From NCBI GenBank assembly GCA_009760855.2, contig WPIO01000001.1:24197001-24261000 (forward strand): a DNA stretch of 64,000 nt, given 5' to 3'. Both the position numbers and the translations under genes were made by a program. Source of the stretch: Cristatella mucedo. Taxonomy: Eukaryota; Bryozoa; Phylactolaemata; Cristatellidae. A model generated the notes under the pieces. The model was not told where the DNA came from. It ran no database searches and was given only the letters and a program-made list of their open reading frames with translations. Of the stretch, positions 33,441 to 54,899 are shown in pieces (position 1 is the stretch's first letter; every line of letters begins with the position of its first letter).

Positions 33441-33484
33441 ACTGCCAGTGCAGGCAGACCGGTAGTACCGTAAGCCATCCCAGG

Positions 33485-33726: not shown

Positions 33727-33959
33727 ATTCTTAAACGCATATGCACCAGTTTGGTTCACACGTGCACATGCTAGACGGCACGTGCGCAACTAGATGCGTG
33801 CTGGCGAGCGAGCGTATCGTTAGCTCTATTGGTCTAAGTGCCGTCACAGCATGCAGCTTTTATTTATCCGTCCATGCGCTCACTGTACGAAAGGAAGCCG
33901 ATGCACGAATCTCAAGAAATGGAATCGCATTTGTTCATTTCCTTACCAAGACTAACATT
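33727..33959. other. No gene seen
   Basis: No supportable feature. Confidence 0.3.
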
Positions 33960-34265
33960 TTAGTGGCTTAGCGACAATTGCATGGGAACCCAATCCCTTT
34001 CTAGGCTGTTCACATATGGTGTGAGGGAGCAAATCAATCCGTTTGGAATCGAGTGCAGAGCGTCGGCAAGTCTTGACACATAGTAGACGCATGGACGGAG
34101 CGAGTGCTGTGAGAAACAGCTCGGCATTTAGCGTTTTCTAAATATCGCCAAGTCAGGAGGTATTCGCGATGTCAGTCTGTAATGAGTCTGGGCTTTGAAT
34201 GGGATTGTACGAACAAACGGCGTGGTCTTGAAAGGATTTGAGATTGGAGTGTGGTACTTACCGCT
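33960..34265 (-). mobile_element. Old family A 3' end
   Basis: The plus strand shows GGGAACCCAATCCCTTTCTAGGC (diverged hairpin) and, further on, the complement of the NSxPTC-TSPDL region (gccaagtcaggaggtattcg, gtacgaacaaacggcg). Heavily mutated. Confidence 0.65.
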
Positions 34266-34554
34266 CAATGATACCTGTACATGTACCGTTGACTGTTCCG
34301 TGGGAGGAAAACATCGAGTAGCTTATGAATTCAAACCGCTACAACTAGAAACGGCTTAGGTGTTGATATTCTGCTGCGGAAGTTGATGTTCTGGAATTTT
34401 TTTATTTGTCGATGCTCTGGAAATGAAACCTCTGGAATTGTTAAGGCTTCTTGTCGTGGGAATATTGGCTTTGGGCTAGCGACTACTGCAAGAAAAGACG
34501 GAGCTTAGTAGTGCGGCTGAAGTGCACAGTCGATGGAATTCTTTTAATTATTCG

Positions 34555-34556
<2 letters not shown>

Positions 34557-34626
<70 letters not shown>
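34557..34626. repeat. (CT)n microsatellite
   Basis: About 35 uninterrupted CT units. Confidence 0.95.
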
Positions 34627-34628
<2 letters not shown>

Positions 34629-35467
34629 GGAGCGCCTCGGGGTGCTATTCTGAGTGATGCACAACTTGCTCAGCGCGTCTAACTCCCTTGGACTTTAAAA
34701 CCTGCCTTTTGATTATAAATAACACTGCTGGGATGTCCAGCTTCAGAAGGGATATCTGGAAGCAAAAGCCGCTAGAAGCTAGAAATTTTGGCTCACCACA
34801 TGCCCTGCACGCTCTTACTGAGGGCTTCGAACGCATGACTCTGCGAACAAGCGCCCGCGCCATTTTAAAACTCACTCGAATTCGTTGTTTCAGTCATTCA
34901 GTGGTTCCTTGCCGCCGAGAGTCCTGATCTATAGCTTCAACTGCCGGCTCCTTCTATTTCTCTTTCTGAGCTACCTCTTTGTATCTCCATCAGCCAGGAA
35001 GCCGTCTTAAAGAATAGCACATTCTATAATTCTAAAATGCTGTTGGCCCAGTCGAACTGAGGAGTACTGCAGTCAATAGCTGAGGCCTAGCAGTATCCTC
35101 GTGCTTCCGGTCAATAAATACCTTTTCTGCTTTCCTTGCGTCTCTGCACTGTTCGCCACGCACATTATCTTGGGATAGACCTGGCTCCTAACTCTAGGCT
35201 AGTTCAAGTTTCCCGGTAAACACGGAAGTTTTCCCTCTCCCATCGTTGCTGATAGAATGCGCTCTTTCAATAAATAAGAAGTGCTGTTTATCCATCCTGC
35301 CCCTTGCAGATCAAACGAGCAGCTCTTGCTCTGCCACAGAATACCATCCGGTGGGCGCTCCCCAATTACTCTCAATGCTCGGGAGTCCCCTAAATTCAGC
35401 CGGTTCCCGGAATCAAGACATCAATGTCATCCATCAACGGGGCCCTCGTGGTTTAAAGGCACTGACA
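34627..35467. other. No gene seen
   Basis: Short frames on both strands without recognisable domains. Confidence 0.3.
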
Positions 35468-35475
35468 GCTGTTAC

Positions 35476-35590
35476 CAGAGGCGAAGCCAGCAGAGTGGCA
35501 GTGGTGGCAGCTGCCACCGCGGGCCGGGTAGGTGAGAGGAAGTCTGACACCCGGTCGGGCGGCCAGCGGCTCCTCATGGCTTCGCCTCTG
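35476..35590. mobile_element. hAT-type MITE, 115 bp
   Basis: Inverted ends CAGAGGCGAAGCCA ... TGGCTTCGCCTCTG are perfect over 14 bp. An exact 8 bp direct repeat gctgttac flanks it (35,468-35,475 and 35,591-35,598). No coding capacity. The ends resemble those of the 238 bp MITE at 19.2 kb (CAGGGGTGGAGCCAG), suggesting related transposase specificity. Confidence 0.9.
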
Positions 35591-35755
35591 GCTGTTACGA
35601 TCGCTGGACTGAACAATAATCGGAATTTTCGAAATACGACGAAACAGCATCGTGACCGTAGTTTCGTCAGCCTGCACATCAGCTGCAAAAATCATCACGA
35701 GTAGGCGAGCTTCCCGCCCAGTAGGAATGCGCTACCCTTTAACGACCGAGGTGGC

Positions 35756-35826
35756 GGGTTGGAGGCATGTAGAGGCATGAGGAGGCATGTGGATGGCATC
35801 TGGATAGCATCTGGAGGCAAGTGTGA
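35756..35826. repeat. Short tandem repeat around ggaggcatgt
   Basis: GGAGGCATGT, AGAGGCATGA, GGAGGCATGT, then GGATGGCATCT and GGATAGCATCT, GGAGGCA: a degenerate 10-11 bp repeat. Confidence 0.75.
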
Positions 35827-37959
35827 ACCGCCTGGATAGATATCGGGTTCTCTTTGGTCTATGTACAAATAAACAATGTTTTTATGTATTCAATGATTAA
35901 ACCTTTTCAGAGGACTACACTTGTCCGGACCACCCTGCTTACCTGGAACCGCACAAATGGGCTTGCATTCGCTCGCACGCTGAATCCTGTTTGCGACAAG
36001 ACGCAAGACGGTCTCCATCTCTGAAAGTACTCATCACTGTTTAGTTCTGTACTCTCCAGCACTCGGCTGTGCATCCACGTTTGCCTGCTCGTTGTACTTG
36101 ACATATTGCGTTTCAGCCGAGGATCTCAAAGCTTGCTGCGGTCACGAACGGACTGCAGCGGCTCCTGCACCAAAGTTCTTGGCCGCAGACAGACGCGCGA
36201 CACATATTGGTAGAGCAGGCCGCTGTTAACGCGGCTAGCTAGTCGCATACGCTGCCTCGACACGAGCGATCGGTAGCGAGCATGGCGGCGATAAAGAGGT
36301 CTCGAACCTTCCCATAACAAGTGCGTGCCGTTAATGAAGAACAGTCTATTCCACGGTAGCAGGCCACAGAGATTCATGCGTGGAAAGTACCGGCACGGTA
36401 CCATAGCACGCAACTTACTAGTTTGAAGCCTACAGTCCAACAGGCCATCCACCACTTGAATGAGGCTTTCTATGCCTTGTTTACATTGATTGTGACCCAA
36501 ATTGGTCTCAACAGCTTTAGTTCTGGAAATTCTAGTAATCTCTCTTTTTCACAACACTTGCGTTGGCACCCACTGGTTTCCCAACTTTCGGGATACTACG
36601 ACTTATTGGGGGGGGGCAGGTTTTGGCAACTGGTCGCACAGTCCGTCGCCCTAAGCAGCGGGCGTCCATGTAAGCTTGCTTAGTAGGGCCGACTCACAAA
36701 GCATCAAACGACAGGGCTGGGCCATGTTTTCAGATTAGGGACCAAGGTTAAGGTTTTCCCCGAAGCCTGGGGAGATTTTCCCCGTGCCTCGGGGGAATTT
36801 TCCTCGGACCCCGTTGCGTCGGCAATGCTGGGTTTGCTCCCAAGTGGCTCTGAGCTCAACTGGGCGAAGGAGCTTTTCCTTAATTGGCAGGAATCTTTTA
36901 CGCAAGAGATCGGCTCTTGTTGTTATCTCCGGTGACGAACTAAATCATCTGGTCATCGTAGAGTCTTCTACAAGAGCAAGTACAACTGCTCGCTGGCCTC
37001 CCAGTCAGGGGGGCTGCCGAGAACGTTCGACCTTTCAGCACCGGAGCAGCTGGCGATACATGTCACTAGCAGGCTCGACCACGGAATCTCACTCAACTGC
37101 CTTCGGACCTGCTCGGAAATGTAACGCGTCACAAAAAGCGCAAATGGAGTGCCCGTCTTGTTTATACGCGTACGCATGTGGAGCGTGTAGCGAGCAACTT
37201 TTCTACACAAGTTCACCCGACTTCTAGCATAAGACCATATTATTGTTCTTTAACCTCGAAGCTGGCTGAGTAGGCCAAATACGGCAGCTAGTCATATTTG
37301 TTGTCTTCCAAATGGATAACGTCCCACAAGAACAACTTGGACAGACTAATGCATCTGGGCTGATTTTCTCGCTGACTTATTACTTCGCAACCCCGACGAT
37401 CCGCGGGCTTAAAATCCTAGCACCCGCTTGTCAAATTCGTTTACCTTACTCCCTGAGCTACTGGCTCACCAAATGGGCTCTTATATTATTATATTATATA
37501 ACATTGATCACATGTATTTATTGCATTATCTTAATCTATTACATTATTATTTTGTATTAACTACAAAGGTGAAAGATGTTGGTAAGTGACATGTATTTAA
37601 AACGTGCAGTTTCTGAATCCTTGTTGGTGACCAGGTGGGAGATACTGTTTCAGGCTTCAGTTACATGCTCAACAGCACCAGCTAGGGCCGCTACCGGCTG
37701 GATTTTCCGGTCTCGGGGCCGGGTTTTCCCGATGACGTCACCTCATAGGTGCACTGCCGGGGCAGGGTCGGAGCTAGTTCTTCTGCAGCTGGCTAGCTTA
37801 TGGAGCATTCTGCCAGCTTCACAGCCTTGGCAGGTTAAAAAAAATGTGGCTAATTCGCTGGAGCATATTCGCGTACCATAGACGTTGCTTTTGAATAAAG
37901 CTGCGTCTCAATGTGTCAAACCGGTCGCGCCAGCTAAACCGACCGGGTAGTGGCTGATA
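35827..37959. other. Unassigned 2 kb
   Basis: No supportable gene. A minus-strand frame of 124 codons (36,126-36,500) has no recognisable domain. Around 36,755-36,810 the words ttttccccg and cctggggaga/cctcgggggaa alternate, a small imperfect repeat. A run of eight or nine Gs is at 36,607. Confidence 0.35.
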
Positions 37960-38420
37960 ATCATTAATCGGGATTATGCGATAATCCACGGCCACGGCAG
38001 CATGAAAGCCGGCGCCATGAGATAGGCGGGCGGTTGAGATTCCAAACTCGACATTGGCCTAGGATCTGATTACAGTTCTCGACCGCTGAACCATTGTTGT
38101 AAGTCATGGTTGTTGTTGAGCGCCTGTAACCCTCCGATGCTGTCAAATAGACTTGTCTGCGTCATGGATACGGATTAACTACATAAAAGTATGTGCGCTC
38201 CGCTAAAGCCGCCGCGATCCTACTACTGTCGGCATACCTGCGTACATAAGTGCAGCACCCACAAGTCGCTAGCAGTGCTACAAGATTCATGCGCGCCAGT
38301 ACATGTTACGCGTCAGCTGAGACTAGCACCGTTAGGAACGCTGTGTTTAAGGCCCTAGTTCTGACCGGACGTGGCAGCCGCACAACGCGGATCCTTATTC
38401 GTGGATCCTCCGTAATATTT
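37960..38420 (+). repeat. Repeat family D, copy 2
   Basis: Aligns with 11,640-12,115 from GCGATAATCC through GATGCTGTCAAATAGACTTGTCTG, CACAAGTCGCTAGC and TAGCACCGTTAGGA to AGTTCTGACC, indicating a dispersed unit of about 460-475 bp. Confidence 0.65.
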
Positions 38421-38869
38421 TAAAGAGAGAGCCATCAGTCTTTGAAGTTTTGAGTGTGTGTGAACTTTCAAATGAATATGAATGCGGACCCATTAATACT
38501 GTCAAAGCACTTTAATTGGAATACCGTGCATTATATCTCTGTCCCAAAAACTATCAAAGCCACAGCTCAAGGGATCTTCGGGCTGTGGCATGCAACAAGA
38601 CTTTGATTCACAAAGGTTTAACCACTTTCCTGCGACTGTTACTTGTCAGCCACTTTAGCGAAATAAGGGAGTTCAAAAAAATCTATACTGGTATGTCAAT
38701 CTCAATCTTCAACCAAAACAACGTAAGCTGTTGGATGGCCTTTCGTTGGGAGACAGCAAGTTATTTGCGGCCGAGCTTCAGCAAAGGTCGTGCCCCGTGT
38801 CGAATCGTGAGGGCAGGCCGGAAAAAGATGTTCGCACGCAGCAGCTTACCATTCGCGGGTCTTGGACCT
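38421..38869. other. No gene seen
   Basis: Nothing supportable. Confidence 0.3.
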
Positions 38870-39015
38870 CTTAATAATTGCCATAATAATAATAATAACA
38901 ATATATTTGTATAGCACCCTCGGATAACTGAATCCTTTTCTAGGCACTTTAAGGATGTTATACGGAAAGCATTACCAAATGATTTTGGTAACATCCGCAA
39001 GCAGCAGGCACAACG
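38870..39015 (-). mobile_element. Variant family A 3' end
   Basis: AATAATAATAATAAC tail, hairpin half CTCGGATAACTGAATCC, and the same 3' UTR variant as at 28.6 kb (gcattaccaaatgattttgg, gcaagcagcaggcaca). Here the hairpin has no CT expansion. Confidence 0.75.
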
Positions 39016-40015
39016 GTCTTAACCCTATTCAAGTACACACTCGAAATCTGAAAGCGGCCTGTGCGAAACAATAAGGAATGCGACAGAACGTTGGCTTTCT
39101 TCTACTGACCGATGACTTCGGTACCGGCTATCTGCAACGAGATTTTATCGGTCTGCTCTTGTAGTTGCTCCAGATAAATATACGGCCAAAGCCGCAGGGA
39201 AGTAGTGGGTCTGAGAAGAAACGGAAATGACGCCCGACGTTTGTCACGGCGAGGGAGGGAAACGGCAGAGTGCATCGACCTCTCCGGCTGCAGTAACGGT
39301 AATTACGTGTCCCACGATTTGCAACCAGCTGCTTGTCCCTTTACGGTAAAGCTACGTGTTGCCGAAGCAGAACTCCACTTTCTTGGCAGGGCATCGGGAA
39401 AGCACATGTAATGTAGCGACGCCCCCCCCCTCGATTGATCTTGCAAGGAACCCAAAAGAACAGTTGAACTGGGCAGTGGAAGAAAATAGATGACGGATTT
39501 GATGCACGACAGTCGTCAACTGACGAACTGGTAAGTTGGGAGCAGCTAGTAGGCGTCAAGAAATGTTGAAATTCAGTAACTTGAATCAGCCTCTACGCAC
39601 ACAGACAACATCCGGTATCGCGTGCTTTCGTTCTTCCTTACTTAAATCGCTCTCTGTGTGCATTGCCGCATCCTTCAAGGGTACACCAAATTTTTGCTGG
39701 AAGTAATAATTTAAGCACGGTGGGTTTCCTAATTTTTCTTTGGTCTAGCGATGCAATGCTCGTTCAGTACGGCACCCGCGTCTCTAGACCTGAGCGGCGT
39801 AAACGATTAATTCCACCAGCGGCAGTGGCATCGTTTTTGCGCATGCGAGCAGCTTTGTATGCTCGGCTCTTCCTCTCTTCACTTGTCTAATGAAAGGCAG
39901 AGTAAAAATCGCCGGAAATGGTACCTCGTTTTTCCGCCGCCTCGTTACCTTCGAGCCCGTTCTTTGAATGCTTCTTTAGGTTTCAGTGTCGAGCTATTTA
40001 ATTAGAATAAGATCT
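39016..40015. other. Mostly unassigned; repeat E copy 2 at 39,665-39,780
   Basis: The segment 39,665-39,780 aligns with 33,330-33,440. The rest has no recognised feature. Confidence 0.35.
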
Positions 40016-40764
40016 GCACCATCTTAATAATTATAATAATATAATAGACATTTGTATCGTGCCGTAAGAGAACCAAATCTCTTTCTGGGCACTGTATAAA
40101 TGCTGGTAAAGATGCATGCGCACAAGTTAGTGATACCATGCACACTGCCAGCGTGTAGGTATGAGTGCGAAATCGGCGATTCGCAAGGCATGGTCGGAAC
40201 AGGTGCATTTTTAGCTTCAGTTTAAACTTCAAGTCAGGTGATGTCACCCCATCAGTGGAAATCAGTGGAGGTCCAAACTTTGGCAGTATACGAACTAAAC
40301 GCATTTTCCCCAAAATATTTGAGGTTGTTCAAGCGACACAGTTAAATTACTTCAATCGGAAGAGCGAGTGGTACGTATCCTAGCCTGCTTGGGTAGTTCG
40401 GATTGGTAAACCGGATCAAGAGCATGAAGAGACCTAAAGGTGAGTAACAGCACTTTGAAAACAGTACACTGCGAGATGGGGAGTCTGTGCAGGTAAGGCA
40501 CTATTGGCGTAGTGTGGCAACTGCAACTTTCGCGACAGACAAGCATGTCTGCAGAATTTTTTACCAGCTATAAGTTTCTTATTGCACAGGCAGGAAGGCC
40601 AGCGAGCAGTGTGCTACAGGTGTATAGATGGTATGCCTCGAATGAATGGACTAGCTTGGCTCTTGTATTCTTATCCAAGAGACCCTGAGCTTTTTTAATA
40701 GTTCATCGCTTAAACTAATAGAATTGACTTTTAACCTGGCGTGGCTCTATAGGGAAAAGAAGAA

Positions 40765-40895
40765 TTCTGTTGGCTATTAAATTCATACTGAAAGCAGCTT
40801 AGGCTTTGAGTTCACTAAAGAAAACTCTCTTTATGTAAGACCAGTGAAGTCATGTGGCTTTGTGGACTTACATATGGAGATATATTACATTACCT
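40765..40895 (+). mobile_element. Family B 3' end nested in family A
   Basis: AAAGCAGCTTAGGCTTTGAG, AAAACTCTC, then CTTTGTGGACTTACATATGGAG and ATTACATTAC, matching the family B 3' end seen at 15.5 and 56.4 kb. Highly diverged. Confidence 0.6.
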
Positions 40896-41541
40896 TACTT
40901 TGGAATAGGACGCTCAGATGTTTGCATCCGCTGCAAAAGATTTACTGGCCAATCCCCTTTGGGAGGTCGGTTTTCTATGAACTGAGTAACGCAAGTATGG
41001 CCATAAATTTTATATTGGTATACAGTAATTCAATTCGAGTCATTTTCTGCCATCCAAATGCAAATGTCAGAAATGCAAGCCGCGACGGAGTTAGGCACGT
41101 TTGACGTGCTCAAAGGCAGGGATAGATCAAAGCACACGCTTAGCATTGTGTCATTTTCACAGAAATGGAAGCGGACATTGTGATTGGGAGCATTTATAGG
41201 GAGACAATAAATTGGACATTATGACAATCAAGCGTGGGTTTTTGAGGTTACCTAGACTTTAGAGGCTCATATGATGACTGTTTAAATGTTGCATTTGATG
41301 CAGGGGAGCTAAGTGTCAGCTTCAGTGCGGACCAAAGCAAAGCAGGGCAGCGTTTCAGAAGAGCCGTAGGCTTGGGGTCCAGACGGCTGGTGGGTGGTCA
41401 TTTTTAAGTGGCGGAGGAACATTGAGATGAGGTCATCTTTAAGTGGCCGGCTTTGAGGCAGACTTTGAGGTGATTCAATGAGCTGCAGTGAGGAATCTAT
41501 TGCGAATTTTAGCTTGGTGATGAATACATTGTTTTATCTAT

Positions 41542-41889
41542 CTATCTGCTGAGAAAATTATTTCTTAAAGCAGGATCTGTTGAAGGTAAGAATTTAATTT
41601 GCATACGATCGCGGAAGAATCGGAGCGTGTTACCTTCGGTGTGAATGCGACCACACGCCTGAGCCACAAGAGAAGAGGAACCTTCAAGAGAAGAGGAACC
41701 TCGCCTGAGCCACAAGAGAAGAGGAACCATCCTGTCTGGCAAGCTCGACACATCAGAGTCAATTGGGTCGTCAAAATTAGTGTTATAATCGCCCAGTACA
41801 AGGAAGGTATGAAAATTCGTGCCCAGAATCGAAATGCAGTCAGAAAAAGTAAATTTGAAATAAAGAAAGACTTTATACCTGAAGCGCAA
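41542..41889 (-). pseudogene. APE-type endonuclease fragment of family A
   Basis: Frame containing TNFHTFLVLGDYNTNFDDP, where GDYNTNF corresponds to the GDFN catalytic motif of LINE endonucleases, then IHTEGNTLRFF, corresponding to the THxxGNTLD block. Between them 41,665-41,735 holds a tandem duplication of gccacaagagaagaggaacc, which disrupts the domain. Confidence 0.7.
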
Positions 41890-42560
41890 ACGATTACAGG
41901 CGTAATTTGCTGCTCGCTTTTGAATGGACTAAAAAAGAGATTCAAAAGACTGCTTCCAGGGGACTGCAAAAGGTTTGAAACTAAGGCTGGTCAGTCGACG
42001 ATGGCTATTTCATTCTCAACATTTATTGATCTCGGGGTCTGACATGAAGAAAAGCCTGTGAGGGCGATATTGGTCACAGTGGCGCTGTTAGTGGATTTCT
42101 GCCAGGTCTCTGAGGAGATAGCACGGCACGAGGTAGCTCCGATAATGGCTGTTTATATACAGACCCCTTAAAGAGAGCCTGCACTGCTGCACTAAGCCTG
42201 ATTTGGCGTTGCTGCAAACAATCCTGCCTTGCACTAATCGTATGTAGACACACAGCGAAGACCCCACGAGTACACAGATCTAAAAAAGCAGCCAACTTTG
42301 CATCAAGATCAACGTGACAAAACAGCCTCGAGAATTGACTGCTTCTTACGGTTGTTTGATGATGACTTAGCCGAAGCAGTGGCAAAAGGGCTTGGCTCGC
42401 CGGGACCAGGTGGCCGATTAAAAGAAAGATCCATATTGTCACTCTCCGCATCGGATACAGCTGCTTCCGTGCTGTCAATGACCTCACTCGTTCGCAGCTC
42501 TACAATTACTGCTGTACTATAGTAATGAAGTTCTGTAGTCACTAATCTTTATTACGGTGG

Positions 42561-42859
42561 CTAATTTTCTCCTTGACCTGCACACAGTTGGGAATATTCA
42601 GGATTGCCTAAGCGAAAGAACTACAGCCGAAGTCCATCGGCAATGACAGACCGAGCCTGCGGCTGTGTCTTGACCCCTCTTTCATGACTCTTGCTACGTT
42701 GTTTGGCTGTAAGGAGGGAGGAGCGGGAAGCTCAGGCTTTTCGAGCAAAGACTGCGGAAACGAGGCCAAGCGCAGAAGCCACATGGGTGACGTTTTGTAA
42801 AGAGCCATTCGAATGTTCTGGCTACGCTAGAAAACCCACGTGGCAACGTCTCGCATGCA
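42561..42859. other. No gene seen
   Basis: Unassigned. Confidence 0.3.
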
Positions 42860-44130
42860 TGCGCGAAAGCACCGAATTTCGTGCATTGACTGACTCGTTG
42901 TCTATTGTGGCTCATGTGCATGGCCCTACCCACATCAAGGGTCACACACTCGACCAGATTTTCTCATATAACGGCACTTTGTCATCACCAATTATTACCA
43001 AATCCTGCTTATCTGACCACATGCAGATCTCATTCAATCTACAGTGTGTGCCCACCTCCTCCTCTAAAATAACCTGTGAATCGCAAAACCTCAAGACCCT
43101 TGACATCGATGCTGTCCGTGCGAGAACATCCGCTTCACCTCTGCTGCTCAGTCCTCCCTCCGATCTGTCATCATTGATAGATAGCTACAACACGACACTA
43201 GCTGACGCGCTCGACGAGCTTGCACCTCTGACAAAGCGAACTGTGCGCTCCCGCCCAGACGGCCTATGGTTTACTACAGACATTAAACTAGCCAATTCTA
43301 CTAAACGAAAGCTTTAAAAAGCATACAAAAGATCAGGACTCACTGTCCATCGACAGGCATATGAAGACTACTGTAGGTCGTACCAATCGATCCTAGCAAA
43401 AGCCAAGTCTAGCTTCTATAGAAACATTGTTGAATCACAGATGCACAATCCAAAAATGTTGATGTCGACAATAAACCATCTCCTCAACCGTTCCCAGATT
43501 AGCTCCTTACCTGATGATCCTTGTGATGATCTAGCCGATCGCTTCTCTCGATTCTTTGTGCAGAAGATAGACAAGATCAGGGAATCCGTCCCTGCGATGA
43601 CAACCTCCCCACTATAATGCTGTCTCTTCATTCTATGGCTCCAGCCTATCTCTTAGATATACTCCCCCATCAGGCCAAGCATCGTACCACCCGCTTTTCG
43701 GAATCCAACAGTCTACAACTACCTCGTACAAACCTTAAATCCTTTGGAGACTGTGCATTTAGTTCGTATGCTCCCAAAGCCTTGAACTCCCTCCCGACCT
43801 GCGTCAGAACATCTCCTGACCTGACCACATTTAAAAGAAACTTAAAAACACACCTGTTTAGGACAGCATTTAGTGGGTCCCTGTGATTCGTTCTTCATGT
43901 GCTTATGCGTGCTGACACTGTGCATGCTGCCACTAACCACATTTGCATGCTGACCCTGTGCATGTCACCCCTAACCATGTTATTCATTTTGTTTGTTTTT
44001 CAAGCATGATTTTACTTACCATTCAATTGCATTCCCCTTTGCAGCAAATGTTAAGCGCCTAGAAAGAGATTAAGATCTCTGAGGGCGCTTTATCAAGTGC
44101 ATTATAATTATTATTATCATTATTAAACTT
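42860..44130 (+). mobile_element. Family A LINE with internal deletion
   Basis: Opens within the endonuclease (DSLSIVAHVHGPTHIKGHTLD, then SDHMQI) and continues through the linker (YKRSGLTVHRQAYEDYCRSY, KSSFYRNIVESQ, DRFSRFFVQKIDKIR). It then jumps at about 43,617 straight to LHSMAPAYLLDILP and the C-terminal end, hairpin and TTATTATTATCATTATTA tail. The whole RT core is missing. The two surviving blocks are nearly intact (one stop after KRKL), so the deletion probably happened at or near insertion. Confidence 0.85.
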
Positions 44131-45414
44131 GAATCGGCCTCATCATGGGACACGTACACGTGTTGCATTTGATGAGCGTTTGAATTGCGTCATGCTGACG
44201 AGGTAGACCAGGTCAAAAGGAAGTGGATTCAGTAGAATAAGTCCTAACAGGAGGTCCCCTGATAGTTCCTGTCTCCGGCAAGTCGACGAGCATGGATTGG
44301 TCGAGAGCTCCAGCCACTGTCGTCGTAGCTCGAGGAATCGTGGGGCCAGTGAGTCAGCCAATTATTTCGCAACGGCAAGCTCAGGTGATTCAATTTTGTA
44401 AACTGATCTGCCGCCGTCAAAGAGCACGGTGCCTAGTGGACTTCGTGCGTCGCCAGATGATATATCAATCGAGTCCAATTACGTTAACGGGTAGACAAAT
44501 TTCGCTGAGCAGTGGTCTTGGTCCTGCCAGGATCCTGCCACCGATTCTCTCTCTCTCGCACTTCGTGATCATCGGGTCGGTCCTAGATTTTTCGACTGCG
44601 GCTGATGTGCAGCTCAATGCATCCAGTCTCTGCGAGAAGCTGTGTTACTTGCAAACGAATACGCATGCTTCACATTGCTCTTGTGTGGTAGATTTTAACT
44701 GAACAAATAAATGCCAGCTGATAGGGCACCATTATAGAATTCTACAACTTGGAGATTGCGTCACCTTCGCTTGCCGAGACGGTTGTCTAATTTTTATAGG
44801 GTTTCAGATAGTTGAGCGAGACCAGCCGTATGAGTGCTTTTGTCGCCTGCAAAACAGGTCAAGTGGGTTTCTACTTAGCTGATCCATATGGCTGAATAAA
44901 ATGTCCAAAAAAGAGAACGTTGAGATTTCTTGACTCTGTGCTCAATCCAGAAACCTTAATATTCATTTCTGACTGGTGCTCAAGGGCTCGTTTTGAAATC
45001 TACTACCACTAGTGGTCTTTCCAGAGTCGCCTCTGTTTCGGAGTACTGCCTGCAGCAAGTAGTGAAAAAAGTAGCTTGTGCAGATGAAGTAGGTGCAGCG
45101 ACGAAACGATCACAATACGTAAGGGTGTCGCAATGAGGATAATTAGGAGGACCTCTAATCGCTCATCAGGAAATAAATGAGAGGTACGGCTAGTTCCGCG
45201 CCCTAATAAATAATTTCCGCAGCAGACAAGGTAAGAGTCGGTGTTTACTAGCATAACGTCACGTCCCACTGACCGTCTTGCCTTCAGTGGCCATTCTAGT
45301 CCTGAGGAGAATCCTCAAGTCTCGCAACCTTTCCTCTGCTTTCTGCTGCCGCTCTGGCTTTTCTCGACATCTGCGCGGCATCTGCATGTTGCCCGCGCAG
45401 CGGTCGTCAGGGTA
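44131..45414. other. No gene seen
   Basis: Frames of up to 136 codons exist (44,292-44,702) but show no domain, repeat or splice evidence. Confidence 0.35.
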
Positions 45415-45580
45415 GCCGTTCGATCAGCCTGCCGTACCGAGGTGAGTGCTGCAGTTGATCGGGCCCAAACTCTGTAGCCTCAAAGGTCTGCAGCTGATGG
45501 CTGGACGACCAGCAGTGGCCCCCCGCCGTTCAGCTTGCCGTGCGCATTTTCTCGTTAATTCTTTGGAAAGCGATACCAGG
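45415..45580 (+). repeat. Dispersed repeat F, copy 1
   Basis: Aligns with 58,590-58,760; the best block is GGTCTGCAGCTGATGGCTGGACGACC. The same frame gives GLQLMAGRPAVA here and GLQLMTGRPAVA there, so the pair could derive from a coding element. Confidence 0.5.
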
Positions 45581-46680
45581 ATCTTTTGGCGTGGCGACCA
45601 GCTGTGCCGCTACCCAGCCTCTGGTGGCATGACCTCTCTTCTGAGAACTAATCACCCATGTCCTGGTCGTAAAGCCAGACCGGAGCACGCAGTTTTAACG
45701 AGCACGTATAGCTTGACTATTGAGCAGATGCACGTTCAATACTTCCAACGGCTGTTGGCTCACTAAAGCAGTGAACTAATCTTGCATTAGCTACTGCCAT
45801 TCAAGTCTGGGAGCTGCAGCAGAATTTGCAGCGAGATTGCAGCTGTGCTATTTCGTTATCAGGGTTTCCGAAGATAAGCTTATCCAATTCAAGCATTGGC
45901 TCCGCAGCCGTACCCAGGTAAAAAGTCACTGCGACCATACAAAAGCAGAAAGTTGAATATTGATGACCTGTAGACCCGTTTCACGGAGACTTGCAATTAC
46001 TGCTTCAGACGATTGCGAACTGGCTCGTGACGTGACGTATGCTGTGAATTTAGCACTTCCGCGTACTCGGGTTCCACTGCCTTAAAATACCTGCAAATGG
46101 TACGGCTAGCTGGCACGACCTATGGCACTAGCTGGGTGACGACTCTTCGGTGTCGAGTGGAGGCTTGAATTTCAAGGTCGGTGGCTGATGCATCAATACA
46201 CGATATACTCGATTGACGATCTCAACGGTTCTCGATCCCAATAAAACGAGCTGGCTATCAGCTGTAACGGAGAGTCGGGTTACAGGTTGGAGCTTTCATC
46301 CTAAACTGAGAGATACAAATCTATAGCGCAGTTGGACTGCATCGCAAGCGAATAACCACGACAACCGAAAAGAATCGCGATGCTAGAGGAAGTAAAGCAT
46401 TGGAAGAAACTATCTCAAGAAGACATTTACGGTAGCTGCAGGCGGCGGTCACCCCCAAAGCGAATGCAAGGAGGACGATAAATGTAGCTCTCTCCACATA
46501 TCTGCATCTATGGAGAAATTTGGTCATGACCTTGCTCCATTTGTGCCATTCTCTCAGCTGAAGCAGTCAAGCAATAGCCACGATGAAGTCGACCATTCAA
46601 TCTGTCTACGATAAAAGAAAACATCTTTCTGTTTTCCATCTCTTTATTTGAGTGATCTGAGCATCTTCGCTTGCCATATG
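45581..46680. other. No gene seen
   Basis: Unassigned. Confidence 0.3.
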
Positions 46681-46699
46681 TCTCTCTCTCCGTGTCTCT

Positions 46700-46752
<53 letters not shown>
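46681..46752. repeat. CT-rich microsatellite with C tract
   Basis: (TC)n interrupted by CGTG and nine Cs, then about 20 CT units. Confidence 0.9.
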
Positions 46753-46756
<4 letters not shown>

Positions 46757-47637
46757 GACTCTGTCTTCTCATGAGCGCATATAAATAGTAATTTTTCTTG
46801 CCGAAACTAGGTTATTGAAATAAAAAACATTAGTAAAATTCAGTACGTTGACATTTGCAATGTTTTTCACCACTATGAACTCATTTAGTTGGCACAAAAG
46901 CTATATTACGGGAAAATAAATGCGTATACATGGCAGCTAACTGCTGACTTCCTTCGGCATAGATCTTGGCCATAAGTGACCTCACCCTTCAAGATAACAA
47001 TATTGTCATCAAGACCACCTCTCAATGCTGCTACATGCCACTTAGATTTAGAGTGCTCCCTCTTGAAATATTTGCAATGACTCGATTCTGAATTTATACA
47101 AATCAAATACATATTGTTCCGTGATTTTCTCAATTTTACAAACCATTAGCGACTAATTATCAAACATGGTTAACTATGGCAATGGATGATTAGTTTTAAC
47201 ACTAGGAACGTATAAGTACCACGTGGACTTCATGAATGTGCTCCGCCGATTTTAGTCTGAAGACAAGAGATCAGCACACAACTCCCGCCTCGTCTCAAAA
47301 GAAATAGCTAGCTTTCACTTGTGCCTCCTTCGAGCAATCGGATACTGACCCAATTGAAATAAATCTGTTACACAGGGTTTTGAAGATGATAGAACCCTAA
47401 TCGCGCCTTGACAAACAGTTTGAAGTTAATAGTCGTATAAGTAACCGACCGCGTTTATTCGGGATATGCAACAATTATTTCATGATATTGGTAGTTTTTA
47501 CAGTTATCCTGGCTATTTTTGCAGGACATACCTAAGAGCGTACTGACAAACAGACGCATGCTGCATTTTAATGGTGTTACAGCGGAAGTACAGGCATACT
47601 CAAAAGCTGAAAGTACTTTATATTCATCACATCCGTG
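46753..47637. other. No gene seen
   Basis: AT-rich, unassigned. Confidence 0.3.
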
Positions 47638-47702
47638 TCAAAGCACCTTGAGAGAGATTGAGTTCTCTGAGGGCGCTTTATCAAGTGTATTATTATTATT
47701 AG
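47638..47702 (+). mobile_element. Minimal family A 3' end (65 bp)
   Basis: Only the hairpin (cttgagagagattgagttctctgagggcgc) and (TTA)n tail. One of the shortest insertions here. Confidence 0.75.
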
Positions 47703-49689
47703 AGAGCGTAATTCACTGTCTTTCCCCCTAGTGGAGGGGGCTACAATTAGTGGAATTGGACGCGGGAAATAAAAAGTCTTTTTGAAATCGGTCAATATTA
47801 TATGTCCAAAACCCGCAATATTGCCAGTAGAGCGATACTTTAGTGTCACTCTGTGGAAATTCTAAGCCACCGAGGCAGCCACAACCCTAGGCCGACGCTA
47901 GATAAGCAGTTTTTGACAAGCAGCTGCCAATGCCAGTTTCCCCACTAAGCTACACCATAGAGCTATATTTTAGAACTTCATCGCAAAGCTGCGTCGAAGA
48001 GCCTGGCTCTGCGACGGCTTTAGCGCCCAATACTGATATCCTATGCCACACATTATAAGCTGAGCGATTAAGCTACCGTAATGGTGCTCGACTCGTTAAT
48101 GCATAGTCGTTCAAGCTCTCGTTACTTGGGCCAAACGACAGGCTCGGGCGGGTGTGCTTGTAGCAAGCTGTGGCACTTTAGGATCCCAAACGCCTCTGGC
48201 GAAAGTTTGATAGTGCAGGCTGTACAAATATACAGGCGCACGTAATGTGACTTTGCATTGAGACCAGAGAAACTTATAATTGAATAGCTATTTTTATTTC
48301 CTTGAAGGCGGTGCTGGAACTAGGTTTGACTGTATCTGCAATCTATTCTGGCCAGGAAGTGCATTGGGTGTCAGCTAGCTGTCAGCTAAAGGTATCCGGC
48401 ATAGCGAAGCTTTTGCCAAGACGATGCTGCATTTTAAAGCTCACAATATTGACCGCTTATGACTATAGTCGATTCTAATCGTCCCAATCAGAAACCGATG
48501 GTATGAGCTGTCTTTTTTGACACGGTTATCTTATTACCCGCACAATCAAGTCTTTTTCTTCATCGCAGTAAATAGTCCTGGTGTGCAATCCTGTAAATTT
48601 CTGTCGATCTGCTTAAGGAAATACTCGGCTTTCTCTTATTAGAGCCAGATACTTAGTTGGTGGGTCCAGTTACGAAGTCTTGGCTTCATTAAACTACTTA
48701 AATCGGTGAAATGAATGTGCAGTATAGGGATGTTCTACTTAAAAGGCATTTATTGAATACAACGAGTGCGTTCATCTGAGAACTGCCTGCTCATTTGCTC
48801 TAAGAAATCATTCAAACGAAGTGAGTAGTTTGCCAATACTACATTGCTAAAACTAGTGCTTGCCGTCTGCCAATGATTACTATTTTTCAGCATGGTGTAT
48901 TAGCTAGAAAAAAATACACGTCGCACACATTCAAACATGATCTTATTACAGACTAATTTATTTCAGCCCAATAGTCGGTGCTATTGCCAAAACTCTTTTC
49001 CTCCACTCGCCATCCAGAATGAATAAGCGGCTTTCGGTTTTCGTGCGCCACAGCTGAAAGTAACGGGTGTTTTTTCATGTTGATATTCTGCCATCTACGA
49101 AAACTACTGAGCATTGGCGATAGAAACGAACTAAAAAGTTTCGCTATCCCTTACCTACAAAAAGCTTTCCGATTCACTTAATCCCAAGACCCTGTAAGTA
49201 TTTCCCGATTAGAATCAATTCTAGCCTTCACTTTTCCCAACCAACATAAATACTTGCCTCGGGTTTGATTTTTTGAGTGCTCTTTCCTCGCCCCCACAGT
49301 TGCAAGGCTTCCTGTCAAGGTCGAGGCTGCGTGTTGCTAACAAAAATCCAGGCTTCTTTGATGCAAGTACTGCCCTAAGCGAATTACGCAGTGCGAAACC
49401 TCTGTTTTTTCCTGAGACGCACGACGTACGACGAGCTCGAGAGGCTCTGAGGCCCGCTGTGCCGTGATTCCCATTGCATCCGTGCCCGGGCGCCGTTGCA
49501 GAATTGGCGAGCTACGCAATCGTCTAGCCGCTTTACCACCTGCCGCTCGACGAATCCCGGTCCACGGGGCCTCGTAAACAGCGAGCTCGCCCTCGGCGAT
49601 GAGCATACCGACCTCCGCCCTTCCAAAGGCACAGTGAAGGACCATGCAAAAAGGGAAATTTGCACTTTCTGTTTGTTGCGTGAAATGAA
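47703..49689. other. No gene seen (2 kb)
   Basis: No LINE, SINE or supportable coding frame. Overlapping frames near 49,270-49,700 lack recognisable domains. Confidence 0.35.
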
Positions 49690-49803
49690 GTCTGTTGGCT
49701 ACTGAATGAGTACCGAAAGCCGCTTAGGCTATGAGTGCGCTATACAAAACTCTCCTGCGTAACACCCACATGGTACTTGTGCCTTTGTGGAGTTATAGAC
49801 GGA
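49690..49803 (+). mobile_element. Family B 3' end
   Basis: GAGTACCGAAAGCCGCTTAGGC, GTGCGCTATACAAAACTCTCC and TGGAGTTATAGACGGAGATA, 5'-truncated. Its tail leads straight into the ACAT microsatellite. Confidence 0.85.
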
Positions 49804-49930
49804 GATAAATACATACATATGTACATGCATGCATGCATGCATACATACATACATACTTACATTCAAACATACATACATACATACGTATGTACATACATAC
49901 ATACATACATACATACATACATACATACAA
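49804..49930. repeat. (ACAT)n microsatellite grown from a LINE tail
   Basis: ACATACAT units with some ATGC variants. Frames through it translate as artefactual Tyr/Ile/His repeats. Confidence 0.95.
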
Positions 49931-51554
49931 TGCATCCTCAGTTTTTCACGCACTTTGGTCACTCTATTAGCCAAAATTATCAGGTTAACCGTGCCGTGTC
50001 AGCAGATTCGAGCCTCGCTATTGGTTCATGGGAGAAGAATCAAATTTTTGGATTGATGGAGTAGGCAGTTGCTACCAGACGGCCGGAACCTGATCGCCGC
50101 CCGATCCAGCGACCCTGGCGATCCCCCCACACACACACACACCTCAGTGTGACGGCAATCCTAAGCAAGCAGGAAAGGACTACCACACAGACTACCGCAC
50201 ACATTCGATTCCCATTTCAGTCTATTATTTGTTTTACAGAAAATGGGCTTGGAAGCGTCGTTCCCCACGTGACATATGCAATTCCAATTATGCAGAGGAG
50301 GCGATACGGGCTTGCAATAATGTATTGCGTGTAGCGTAACCACTATGGTCAGTCAATAGCCAATCAGCTGCTACAGGACACCACTTCTGCTTGAGCTTCA
50401 CTGGCGAACGATCAAGTACCGAATTGCAAAGCACCTGGATAGTAATTTCATTCTTTTAAGAGGCCATACAAACAAGCCATCATTACGGACAATTGAAATT
50501 CCAGTCTATAACAAAACTGTAACTACAATCATGAAACCTGTTAAGACCTCTTGCATCCAAAACCATGCAGTTGCCTTGCTTAAATTTTCGTATATGGAAT
50601 ATAGTCGAAAATTATATTTGTTTGTTCACCTGCGAGAACGGAGAAATGTGGCCTGTAGCAATATTTGAAATGAATTCTTGCTACGCATCGCAGTCATTAT
50701 TTAAGCCCAAACTAATACTTGGCTAAGGACGTCGTTTTCAGAAAATCTAAATGAATTAGTATATGTAAATCCATATGTATGTAAGCAAAAGCCGTGGGCT
50801 TTTGTGCCCTTGAATAATCGGCTGAGTAAATGCATCACCAGTCTACAGCACCTGGCAGGAGGTAATCGTAGCCTGCTTGTTCCAGATAACTGTTTATTGG
50901 CGAGAGATCGTGTTGCCAAAGTAAGAATGTCAGATCCAATTAATCCTCGTCTAACCCCTGCAAGTGCCGCCAAAGGGGTGTTCTGGTGCCCATGTATTGC
51001 TAGTGCCATGGTAAAACTTGCCAACTTTTCCAGGACAAAATCCAGAGATTGAGCAGAGATTCAGCTAGTATGCGTTTTAGGCCACTTATCACGAAACTTC
51101 CCAACATGGCAAAGATCATTCCCATTGAGAAGAATTCTGAATACACACTCAGACATGTTATGAAAACCTTATACCTCAGTTTTTTATTTCCTTAGCAAAC
51201 AGGATTGTAAAGTTGAAAATGTTTCAGTACCTCACAAGCCATCAAATTGAAATTGCTGAATAACGAAAAATGCCCATTCCTTAGCAATGTATGCACCACA
51301 CTAAATATACGAATCCATAGGAAGCCAGAAATCTAGAGGTAGCGCATTGCAGCAAGACATATCTCAAGAGTAAGAAAACACGTCAAAAGAGAAGTAAGAG
51401 TGCGATATTGTGCTGCCTAATAAGCACAAAAGTCAGGATTGCTCTATCCGATTTTATGGGCGAGACGTAGAGTATAAAACTGTAATTAGAACTTGACCTA
51501 AAACAATAAAAGGCTTATTGAGAGCTATTATATAATGCAGATCAGAGAGAACGC
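49931..51554. other. Mostly unassigned; old LINE-like scrap near 50,390
   Basis: A CA run lies at 50,128-50,143. Bases 50,385-50,450 translate to LLLELHWRTIKYRIAKHL, resembling the ADLHWLPVKxRIxFK block of LINE RTs, but from a different lineage. Nothing else is recognised. Confidence 0.35.
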
Positions 51555-52022
51555 TTGCTTGGAGCTATCTCTTTCATTCACGGTTTCACGGTGCCAGCGT
51601 CTAGTGATACTAAAAAGGTAGTCTATAGCTCTTTCGTTGTATCCACTCCGATCCATGACCGTGGAACAAAAAATATTCAGCAAGGGTTTATCACTAAACT
51701 AAATGCAGACACTGAAACACGACTTTGTCATCAAAGCGTCGAGTTCATTGCGGCGCCTGCATTTCACGACCTAGCTTGGGAGTTGTGTATCCCGAAGAAA
51801 GGCAATCCTAACGGTCACCTGCAATTGCGGGTAGGCCGCAGTCGTTCGGGCTCTTCTGTTGCCATAGAAATGGAGCCGTCGAATTGGCAAGCATTTGCTT
51901 TTAATGAAATGGCCTCACGGTCAATGTATCGAACAGAGCTATCCTCGCTTTCTTTTGATGGCCAGCTTGAAGAATTGTCCAAGAAAATGCAAATGCAAAG
52001 CTGTCGCTGCATCGCAGTCTGA
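51555..52022 (+). other. Unidentified open frame (about 155 codons)
   Basis: The frame has no ATG at its start (open from about 51,522) and could be an internal exon. It lacks repeats and low complexity and has mixed composition (ELCIPKKGNPNGHLQLRVG, LSFDGQLEELSKKMQMQ). A TATAAAA string lies about 80 bp upstream at 51,475. I do not recognise it. It lies just upstream of genes C and A on the same strand. Confidence 0.35.
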
Positions 52023-52190
52023 GATTTTCTAGAGCAGTCGTGGCATGCATAGTCTTGCGAGGCGTGTTGCAGCTTCTGGCCCACGACGAGCCAAAGACGG
52101 GCGTAGTACGATGTTCATCGCTGCCTTTCAAGTCACTCTGAGAACTTCAAGCCCGCAGAATCCTCTCGCATCAAGACTAAAAGCAAAGGG

Positions 52191-52674
52191 ATGGTCTTCA
52201 CTCCGGTCCTTATGATGGTCCTGCCTTTCGTACGTATCACTCTTAGTTCACTTTTCTAAGCACATTCGAGGGATGTTTTAGGCAAGCGGCGGTCTCATTA
52301 AGGAGCGCCAAGCACAAAGTTTGCAGCACAATTGATTCGTTGGGCCGCATTTAAACTCTTAATTGACAACGGGATCTCGGAAGTCATTCCATCCTTATAT
52401 CGACGCCCACCCCAGGCAACACCACATCTTCCAGCAGGCATCGTTGGCGTGCCCTTTGAACTGAACCGAGCTAAATTCCGCCTGGCAAAGTGAAGCGTTT
52501 CCCCGAACTCTGCCGATAGCTGTCGTGCAAAAGTGGGTAGACCCTGCTGGCTCGGTTGTTAATATTCCACAGCCAATCTCCGAATTGGATTCTGAGCTCG
52601 TTTCAAACCTTGCTCGAAGGTTCTCGGGTTGGTTCAAAGTGAAACCGCTCCTGTTTTTCGACGCTCAAAGCTAG
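52191..52674 (+). CDS. Gene C (candidate): small two-exon secreted protein
   Basis: ATG at 52,191 opens exactly 13 codons (MVFTPVLMMVLPF) ending at GTACGT, the same layout as exon 1 of genes A and B. The only phase-0 acceptor I found that keeps a long frame is after GAG at 52,470, giving exon 2 at 52,471-52,674 (LNSAWQSEAF ... LLFFDAQS, stop). The product would be about 80 residues with a plausible signal peptide. The acceptor is weak, there is no clear TATA box, and exon 2 is not similar to those of A and B. If unspliced, the frame stops after VRITLSSLF. A decayed paralogue is equally possible. Confidence 0.3.
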
Positions 52675-52811
52675 GCACGGCAGACCGATTACTGAGATTC
52701 CGATCGCTAATGCTGACCAATCACCGTTCTCGATCCAAATGAAGCAGAGCCCCCAACTGCGCGTGTCCTGTTCGTTGAGCTACTGCCTCGTCGAGCTCGG
52801 GTTTCACTGGC

Positions 52812-52818
52812 TTATAAG
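52812..52818 (+). promoter_or_regulatory. TATA box of gene A
   Basis: TTATAAG in the context CACTGGCTTATAAGCAAAG, about 90 bp upstream of the ATG, with ACTGCCTCGTCG just upstream as in gene B. The 5' UTRs also share AAGTAT(T)CG and CTC(T)CCA strings. Confidence 0.55.
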
Positions 52819-52902
52819 CAAAGGTTGACAGGCAAGACTACAGAGAGCCTCGAGATCCCTGGCTAGTAACTAAGTATCGAGATCACTCTCCACCGTCGCG
52901 CC

Positions 52903-53541
52903 ATGGTCGATGCCAGGTTCGTCTACTTCTTTGCAGTCTCGGTACGTTAAAGTGCTCAACAGCTTCTTCGGCTTTCAGAAGAGTGCTGTTTCCTAGCACC
53001 GAATGCATGGCACGTGCGGCTCATTTCTAAGCAGCGAATTTTCGTGACCGCGTAGGTTGCCCTATCCGCGTTCATGAGCCAGACAACTGCAAGTCCCACG
53101 ATGAGAGTGCCAAGACCGAGGGCAACTACCAAAGCGCTGCCTTCGACGACGATCGGTGTCGACAAAACTAGCACTGCCACTACCACTCTGCTGCTGGAAT
53201 CCGCCAGTGCAGGGTCAGTCGAGACAGACTGTGCCTTGGAGCCTGGGACGAACGCCACACTCGACGGTGGATCACTCGACGACCACAACGACTCGCTGGC
53301 CCAGCAAAATGAAACCACGAGCCTCCCAAATGACGCGTCTATTAATTGCAACGGAGTCAAGTCTGCAACTGAGAAGCCAAGCGAACGGGCTGGGAAAGCT
53401 GACTTGCCAGCCAAGACCAAGACTACGACGGTAACCTTGGGTCCCAACGCCCAGAGACTGACAACGAATCGGCCCCCGAGTACAAAAGGTACTGGAGGGC
53501 GGCCAATGCCCAAGCGAAGGAGGCATATAGGAGGACTTTAG
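52903..53541 (+). CDS. Gene A: two-exon secreted Ser/Thr-rich protein, unknown family
   Basis: Exon 1 is 52,903-52,941 (MVDARFVYFFAVS) with an ATG in good context (GCGCCATGG) and a GTACGT donor. A 114 bp intron ends at CGCGTAG. Exon 2 is 53,056-53,541, phase 0, starting VALSAF. Directly before it the frame has an in-frame TAG that is the acceptor itself, which supports the splice. The joined N-terminus is a good signal peptide, cleaved perhaps after LSA. The mature protein (about 155 residues) is Thr/Ser-rich and has two Cys (ETDCALE, SINCNGV) and three sequons (NAT, NDS, NET). A Thr-rich stretch (KTKTTTVTLG) and a basic end (GRPMPKRRRHIGGL) follow. Gene B shares exon length, phase, FFA motif, promoter layout and composition. 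Secreted mucin-like glycoprotein is an inference; no function is known to me. Confidence 0.65.
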
Positions 53542-54899
53542 GCTGCTCCCCTCCCCATAGAATTGTATAGCAAAATCTTATCTTTTTTCCTACGTTTGCG
53601 AGCGTGCAGTTTACTCTGTGAGCAGTAGCTGCGCAGCAAAGCTTCGGTGAGTTTGATCATTTCTCTTGGCCTGTGATACAAAATCTCTGTCTTCTTGCTA
53701 TTTTGTCCGGTATGTACAATCATACAACTATATATAGATAAATATCTATATGTGTATGTGTGTGAATATATACATTTATAAATATGGTACTTGTCAGTCA
53801 TCAAGTTTGATATGCATTTTTGTCACCCTATGCGTGACGAAAATCTCGCTTTAATCAAAGAAAATTATTTGTGAAGTTCAATGAATTTGAAGGGTTGACA
53901 GCTAAGATAATATTAGTGAGACACTAATCATTTCATTGATTCGAACCTGCTACTTTTAATTGGCAGCAAGAAAACTGTCCTCCGCAGACGTTGCCAAGAT
54001 CAGAATTGCCTTGAAAGGCCTCAAGCTATACTATTGTGCATCAAGTATTGGCGATAGTAGAGAGCGGGTAAGGAGAACTCGGATTGTGCAGCACAGCATG
54101 TGGGTATAGGCGCCAGCTGAACAATGGGCATTCGAGTAGTTGAACAGCTGAAGCAAGTCGCTAAAGGAAAAACCCGCAGTCGTCACAACTAAACATGCCT
54201 AGCAATTCTAAATGTTTGCGGGTCTTTTACGAAGTGACTTCAGCCGTATGTGGCTCGGAGTGGGTGTAGAGATACACCTGCTATAAGCAAATAACTTAAA
54301 AAATAAAAAATAAATAAATAAAATAAATCGAACCATGGATCTTTATAGTAGCGTGCGTCAGTTTCACAACACTTGGATTTACTAGGCAGATTGATGCAGT
54401 GAATTGGGAGCTTATTCAAAGTATATGCAAGCCTGGTCACGTGAGCATGGCCAAATTTTTAGTATATGCATCTAGAAATGAAAGCCGCTGGCGGTGATTA
54501 TATCTGGCGGTACCTTGACGCTCTACAATACAATGTTAAGGTGACTACAGTTGGCTAATACTCTGTAAGTCTTAATGGCCGACGGCGAATTATCTGACAT
54601 ATGTGAAAAAATGGAATTGTATCGCAACTTTGCAGTTTGTGCGATAAAACAAAACGTATTTTTACATTTCAATTGCTTGATTGTCTATTCTTTCGAGTAG
54701 AATAGGTGAAATGCTGATTCTTTATGTTTAGTTTTGCTTTTAGAGTAAGTACCTGATACCTTCGGGCAATTAACAGCAATTGCAGAAGGGGAGCTTTTGA
54801 AACATACGTCTCGAGAACTGTAGTCATCTGAGTGCGGTTTTACACTCACGTTCAGCACGCCGACATCGTTGTCATTCAGCTTCACTTGCATTCAAATTT
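53542..54899. other. No gene seen; A/T-rich tract
   Basis: An (AAAT)n-like tract is at 54,299-54,328. No clear AATAAA signal is close behind gene A. No other supportable feature. Confidence 0.35.

Follow-up and report, generated by a model that had tools for sequence, protein, structure and literature searches.

The 64,000-nucleotide stretch of Cristatella mucedo contig C111 analysed here (hereafter the window), which spans positions 24197001-24261000 of the 24,804,919 bases of that contig, contains two short two-exon gene models, A and B. The question that they raise is whether these are real genes, whether they are related to one another and what kind of protein they would encode. Weighing the evidence as a whole, we put the probability that A and B are real, that they belong to one family and that their products are secreted at roughly 0.8. 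A and B would then be small genes with TATA promoters, of one family local to their chromosome.

The two gene models and the rarity of their plan

A preliminary description had placed gene A at 52903 on the forward strand and gene B at 32760 on the reverse strand, and the coordinates and sequences that it gave for both were all present (Table 1). The shared plan that it claimed, of a 13-codon exon, a GTACGT donor, an intron of 114 or 143 bp and a second exon in phase 0, was borne out in both genes. Moreover, A and B each carry a TATA box at a nearly equal distance from the ATG, a feature absent from that description.

Table 1. Features of genes A and B and of their relatives. Positions without a contig name are those of the window; TATA positions are relative to the ATG.
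Feature	Position	Strand	Details
Gene A TATA box	52813..52820	+	TATAAGCA, -90; -91 in A2 and A3
Gene A exon 1	52903..52941	+	13 codons, MVDARFVYFFAVS; first half of the putative signal peptide; aligned with the exons of A2, A3 and A4
Gene A intron	52942..53055	+	114 bp, GTACGT...GTAG, phase 0; 110, 104 and 114 bp in A2, A3 and A4
Gene A exon 2	53056..53541	+	161 codons and stop; remainder of the putative signal peptide and Ser/Thr-rich mature chain ending GRPMPKRRRHIGGL
Gene B TATA box	32845..32852	-	TATATAGC, -92
Gene B exon 1	32722..32760	-	13 codons, MTSAWSKAFFAAL; counterpart in B2 MVSTRSKACYLVAL, 14 codons by alignment
Gene B intron	32579..32721	-	143 bp, GTACGT...GAAG, phase 0; aligned acceptor in B2 TTGCAG
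Gene B exon 2	32027..32578	-	183 codons and stop; mature chain ending GPRPKKRAAN
AATAAA, resembling a poly(A) signal	31710..31715	-	312 nt past the gene B stop; one in B2 at 273 nt
Segment holding B and A	30403..54631		Inverted and colinear with C111:19490745-19519064 (A2, B2)
A2	C111 19.492 Mb	-	Exon 1 MVWARFFYIFAVA, 13 codons; intron 110 bp; TATA at -91
A3	C111 19.165 Mb		Exon 1 MVEATSVHVFAVA, 13 codons; intron 104 bp; TATA at -91; stop before KRRR
A4	C111 19.537 Mb		Exon 1 MGKARFAYDLGVA, 13 codons; intron 114 bp
B2	C111 19.516 Mb	+	Exon 1 14 codons (42 bp); intron 137 bp; TATA at -108
Two A-type pseudogenes	C111 19.191 and 19.301 Mb		89% mutual identity over 1.57 kb

The final in-frame codon of the gene A intron is TAG, so that exon 2 cannot be extended upstream. 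The acceptor of gene B is weak; the canonical acceptor of its relative B2 aligns with this site. Polypyrimidine acceptors that look better in the gene B intron run, by eye, into stops in the exon-1 frame and were rejected. Other acceptors lead to shorter open products for both genes, and a relaxed scan of the window yielded a possible alternative splicing of gene B with a 257-bp intron and a 145-codon exon. An unspliced reading was also rejected, as it meets a stop after 15 codons in A, A2, A3 and A4 (after 59 and 63 codons in B and B2). The same holds for an antisense ORF of 193 codons across gene A (52956-53537, -), as each antisense frame of every gene contains at least one stop. The antisense open stretch over exon 2 is 160 codons in A, and elsewhere the longest runs to 103 codons in A2, 81 in A3, 96 in A4, 74 in B and 101 in B2. 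Splicing of the family as modelled is, on the evidence of these sequences, very highly likely.

The frequency of such a plan was gauged with a strict scan of both strands. To pass, a model had to open with an ATG exon 8-25 codons long followed by a GTRNGT donor, its intron had to measure 60-250 bp and end in AAG, CAG or TAG, its second exon had to run for 120 codons or more, and its N-terminus had to be hydrophobic. Exactly two models passed in the 64-kb window, A and B, each with a first exon of 13 codons, and they alone passed in 264 kb of real sequence (the window and 200 kb of flank). Among windows drawn from a third-order Markov model, 34 of 400 held at least one passing start and 4 of 400 held two (0 of 20 passed in a smaller run), figures which are a guide only, since the thresholds were picked after the preliminary description had been read. 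A scan of these 264 kb under looser conditions, anchored on a TATA box, brought up 11 further ATGs, none of them opening a first exon of 13 codons. Besides the second acceptor of gene B, the relaxed scan of the window added a group of starts derived from microsatellites near 49.8-49.9 kb (-). The gene plan of A and B is rare by chance. ORF length by itself is weak evidence: when each region was modelled by 300 Markov copies, the longest ORF had a median of 122 codons for A and 151 for B, with 95th percentiles of 194 and 235 codons.

Among its other contents, the window has many LINE remains. Reverse-transcriptase ORFs or fragments, which we take to be CR1/L2-like, lie at 56415-57854 (-; Pfam RVT_1, E 3.4e-23), 14354-14881 (+) and 27515-28159 (-), the Pfam scan of the last giving no RVT_1 match, and a LINE-like 3′ end (...GGGCGCTTTATCAAGTGCATTATTATTATTA) is repeated at nine places in the window. 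A GC-rich open frame of 253 codons at 18078-18839 (-), with no above-threshold Pfam match, is accompanied by an 18-bp tandem repeat at 18033-18242, and two adjoining arrays of a 16-bp unit based on CTGCTTCC occupy 62087-62294 and 62687-62822. Elsewhere on C111, open frames were seen by eye that resemble a methylenetetrahydrofolate dehydrogenase exon (24272.5-24273.0 kb), contain EGF-like cysteine patterns (24108.9-24110.4 kb) or look like a BED-finger/hAT-type transposase (24313.8-24315.7 kb).

Relatives on the same contig and the inverted duplicate

Relatives were sought by six-frame protein searches of the whole genome (572,011,866 bases, 688 contigs) with the exon-2 products of A, B, A2, A4 and B2 as queries, searches that may miss diverged copies. 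Gene A matched five other places (E 1.8e-28, 1.4e-19, 7.3e-11, 2.0e-10 and 2.5e-5, the best with 54% identity) and gene B one (E 6.6e-23, 63% identity). All six lie on C111 itself, at 19.165-19.537 Mb, 4.7-5.1 Mb from A and B, and genome searches with A2, A4 and B2 found no further member. A match of the A4 search on contig C32 (E 0.098) contained two stops, had no DNA match and was taken as chance. The proposed family exists, with all its A-type and B-type members on one contig: four A-type two-exon genes (A, A2, A3 and A4), two A-type pseudogenes and two B-type genes.

The two-exon plan is kept in four of the six relatives, with a first exon of 13 or 14 codons and a phase-0 intron of 104-137 bp, and three of these have a TATA box; in A4 none was found in the 130 bp 5′ of the ATG. 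Across the six two-exon genes, exon 1 has 13 codons in five and 14 in B2, all introns (104-143 bp) are in phase 0 and five genes have a TATA box (Table 1). The start of B2 rests on its alignment to B, another in-frame ATG lying 12 codons upstream; B2 carries a TATA box identical to that of gene B, followed by a nearly identical stretch. A DNA search with the 5′ region of gene A found A and A3 only and missed A2, and is therefore insensitive. Both pseudogenes retain upstream DNA and portions of exon 2; matches to exon 1 and the intron were looked for and none was found.

B (-) and A (+) stand head to head with their ATGs 20.1 kb apart, as do A2 (-) and B2 (+) with theirs 23.1 kb apart. Comparison of window positions 30-56 kb with 19.49-19.52 Mb of C111 by blastn gave 42 matches, of which 17 colinear ones were joined into 13 blocks; the remaining 25, mostly short and repeat-like, were excluded. 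Together the 13 inverted blocks account for about 9.4 kb of the 24.2-kb segment, at 72-79% identity after global realignment. This inverted colinearity of both pairs indicates that the A/B pair was duplicated as one unit, and dS is similar for the two copied genes (0.52 for A-A2 and 0.56 for B-B2). The pair would have been copied once, as an inverted unit, with both genes open in both copies. The duplication may extend beyond 30.4-54.6 kb of the window. Four blocks between A and B that look noncoding (45774-47318, 35680-36709, 50421-51172 and 33764-34292) are kept in the duplicate like the exons, at 73-77% identity; in the first of them, shared open frames of at least 45 codons were looked for by eye and none was recognised.

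Constraint on the frames and probable kinship of A and B

Counted over four pairs that are not independent, gap lengths were divisible by three in 19 of 30 cases in exon 2; the corresponding figures were 3 of 11 for introns, 2 of 27 for upstream DNA and 10 of 61 for downstream DNA. The rates for a simulation of neutral change came from the duplicate itself, where five noncoding blocks gave p 0.237 over 3445 sites and 83 gaps. When both substitutions and indels were allowed, the frame of A was still open and in phase after 7 of 4000 runs, and that of B after 16 of 4000. Under substitutions alone it survived in 338 and 132 of 4000, so that much of this test rests on indels. A second stop-free sense frame across exon 2 was found in none of the six genes, B2 having one frame with a single stop.

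Conservation along the duplicate speaks against a strong constraint. Identity between A and A2 is 76% over the first 300 nt of exon 2, 69% in the intron and 68% downstream, and between B and B2 it is 75%, 79% and 71%; the exons, hardly above the adjoining noncoding DNA, are not conspicuous along the duplicate. An excess of differences at third over first and second codon positions was significant in two of six pairs (B-B2, p 0.008; A2-A4, p 0.0005), with p 0.06 for A-A4 and 0.39-1 for the other three. Within the A type, dN/dS was 0.59 (A-A2), 0.95 (A-A3), 0.71 (A2-A3), 0.42 (A-A4), 0.62 (A2-A4) and 0.47 (A3-A4), and for B-B2 it was 0.46. This range of 0.42-0.95 over seven within-type pairs fits very relaxed constraint and, together with exons so little distinct from their noncoding neighbours, upholds the fast evolution ascribed to the family.

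Exons that hardly rise above their flanks would also suit decaying relics, that is, formerly real genes whose frames are open by chance. So would the state of some relatives, among which are two pseudogenes and the truncated A3, perhaps decaying, with its dN/dS of 0.95 against A. Relics are nevertheless a very improbable account of A and B themselves, given how rarely the frames survived simulated neutrality, the exon-2 gaps in threes, and the intact TATA boxes, splice sites and signal peptides of both genes. The picture suggested by the sequences is one of a coding family under weak constraint, with no sign of positive selection.

A and B had further been described as diverged paralogues. We compared A-type with B-type proteins and counted how many of 300 shuffles of the B-type protein, in full or in blocks of 40 or 20, reached the observed score. 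For the global A-B score the counts were 0 full, 0 block-40 and 5 block-20, and the block-40 and block-20 counts were 0 and 5 for A2-B, 0 and 0 for A2-B2 and 1 and 1 for A-B2. The 5′ DNA of A and B (-130 to the donor) aligned with a score of 46 against 19.3 (sd 3.2) in resamples, none of 300 reaching it; for A-B2, 6 of 300 did. The global score and the 5′ DNA support the claim of paralogy.

Local scores, and the comparisons with A3 and A4, show less similarity, which would suit A and B being non-homologous, unrelated secreted genes that had converged on a short exon 1, a TATA promoter and a basic tail. The local A-B score was reached by 0 full, 22 block-40 and 42 block-20 shuffles (1 of 1000 full shuffles in another run). 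Local block-40 and block-20 counts were 3 and 20 for A2-B, 4 and 4 for A2-B2 and 130 and 146 for A3-B2, with a block-40 count of 62 for A4-B2. The corresponding global counts were 5 and 13 for A4-B, 16 and 28 for A4-B2, 29 and 33 for A3-B and 51 and 99 for A3-B2. Moreover, the 5′ DNA of the other six A-type/B-type pairs, of eight, was not significant (28-188 of 300 resamples reached the score), and hhalign of A-type against B-type exon-2 profiles gave a weak match (E 0.01, probability 4%, 28 columns). Convergence remains rather unlikely all the same: no block-40 shuffle reached the global scores of A-B, A2-B or A2-B2, no resample reached that of the A-B 5′ DNA, and exon length, phase, TATA distance and a signal-peptidase site with Pro at +2 are common to both groups. 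Taking the similarity tests together with the shared gene structure, common ancestry of A and B appears likely; it is supported, not certain.

Predicted products and their possible roles

In all six genes the N-terminus was seen by eye to be hydrophobic and to contain a (-3,-1) site. The predicted products, read in the same way, have a signal peptide and no transmembrane anchor, the tail being basic and not hydrophobic. Signal-peptidase sites follow the (-3,-1) rule, by which the cleavage sites were placed; with a slash for the cut, they align as TTA/SP (A), TTS/SP (A2), TTA/IP (A3), TRG/HP (A4), SVG/HP (B) and SVA/HP (B2). The secreted products of the preliminary description accordingly hold as a prediction from sequence alone, with the signal-peptide-like start in all six genes, and secretion would be highly likely. 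Splicing would join the 13-codon exon 1 to the long exon 2 in phase 0, so that the signal peptide is split across both exons. Signal peptidase would then cut at the aligned site, [ST]-x-[AGS] before x-Pro, and release a soluble chain of about 150-170 residues, probably disordered to judge by composition alone.

In the mature chains of the six genes Ser and Thr make up 20-26%, and V, I, L, M, F, W, Y and C together 12-22%. The middle of the chain would be neutral to acidic, Ser/Thr-rich and sequon-bearing, with a net charge of -5 in A, 0 in A2, -10 in A3, -7 in A4, -3 in B and -4 in B2, and we infer that the products are glycosylated. The tail would be cationic and rich in Thr, Pro, Lys and Arg, ending in GRPxPK(RRR) or GPxPKKR; the net charge of the last 45 residues is +10 in A, +5 in A2, +7 in A3, +9 in A4 (taken over 45 residues ending GRPLPKRCR), +11 in B and +8 in B2. 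The columns invariant across the six exon-2 products are P14, S73, A119, P150, P152 and K153 (gene A numbering), three of them in the tail, and the A-type products have two conserved patches, SL.D..DSL..Q.ET and GRPxPK. The two Cys and three sequons reported as common to A and B are present in both, but they are not family traits: A2, A3, A4 and B2 have 0-3 Cys and 1-6 sequons, and the shared count is incidental. Within A and B, the only tandem repeat is a 12-bp array in B (32124-32162).

A Pfam scan of the exon-2 products gave no family at E ≤1 for A, A2, A3, A4 and B2, and for B only a sub-threshold DUF5563 (E 0.35). The Rfam search returned no match, and a PDB search with gene A one, to an engineered protein (E 0.22). 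GRPxPKRRR, which we presume to resemble AT-hook and nuclear-localisation motifs, was considered in that sense and the reading rejected, on the signal-peptide-like start of all six products and the want of a Pfam match.

Our best guess at function, from these sequence features, is a disordered secreted polypeptide of matrix, mucus or defence. The glycosylated part would keep the polypeptide extended and soluble, and the basic tail would attach to polyanions, for example acidic polysaccharides, a mineral matrix or the surfaces of microbes. This role is drawn from composition only: it would suit a chain that is glycosylated, extended and soluble and carries a basic tail. An extracellular matrix, mucus or surface polypeptide of this kind is put forward tentatively. 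The A/B products of mature length share with mucin-like glycoproteins a high Ser/Thr content, sequons and low hydrophobicity, but differ in being short and in having no tandem Ser/Thr/Pro repeats and no membrane anchor.

The tail might otherwise be a basic, Pro/Arg/Lys-rich C-terminal peptide freed by proteolysis from a cationic antimicrobial or host-defence precursor. Invertebrate precursors of this type share with A and B a signal peptide, a neutral-to-acidic region and a basic C-terminal stretch. This charge layout is found in all six members, the tail is among the two best-conserved patches of the A-type mature chain, and local duplication with fast evolution suits immune genes. However, in the A-type alignment as read by eye, the stretch ahead of the tail has no conserved dibasic or furin-like site, and the tail is long, Thr/Pro-rich and, unlike that of such precursors, without a cysteine scaffold; nor is there a Pfam match. 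An antimicrobial role is doubtful. Rapid divergence, with duplication and loss on one chromosome, would equally suit seminal-fluid or egg-coat proteins evolving fast under sexual selection, but dN/dS is below 1 in all seven within-type pairs and there is no link to gonads, and we regard such a role as unlikely. Lastly, the A/B and A2/B2 pairs are all open, and of the four A-type copies outside pairs A3 is truncated, two are pseudogenes and A4 is open. It is conceivable, if improbable, that the products of A and B act jointly outside the cell, for example as a heteromer or as matched polyanion-binding chains, and form a new secreted system.

The flatworm micro-exon genes (MEGs) resemble A and B in their small secreted products and in a very short exon that bears part of the signal peptide; they differ in their symmetric micro-exon series, the present models having two exons, of which the short one measures 39 bp, or 42 bp in B2. 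The host also differs from typical flatworms, whose mitochondria are not expected to read AAA as Lys. In its mitochondrial COX1, on contig C688, TGA is Trp, and at positions conserved in the COX1 of other animals AAA seems to fit Lys (two codons), AGA and AGG fit Ser and ATA fits Met, which points to the invertebrate code (table 5) and so to a host that is probably a protostome. COX1 fragments with in-frame TGA at C166:4375626-4376390, C83:2826-3035 and 3121-3735, C549:2641741-2642010 and C299:634220-634540 are probably nuclear copies or assembly pieces.

The closest described precedent is that of molluscan mantle secretomes, in which fast-evolving, disordered, low-complexity secreted and shell matrix proteins are well described (PMC4897951). 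As far as that account goes, A and B are like these proteins in being secreted (by prediction), fast-evolving, biased in composition, probably disordered and without a recognised domain, and unlike them in their basic tail and in having hardly any repeat unit. On this precedent the kind of protein is already known, though the A/B family itself may be new.

Taken together, A and B illustrate coding genes that are easily missed by similarity annotation, having no domain, a short exon 1 and a divergence near that of noncoding DNA. Support for such genes can come, without RNA, from where the promoter lies, how long the exons are, their phase and the presence of an inverted duplicate. If they are expressed, the duplicate, in which both genes were copied together (dS about 0.5), would be a natural experiment on how fast a disordered secreted protein can change whilst keeping its layout.
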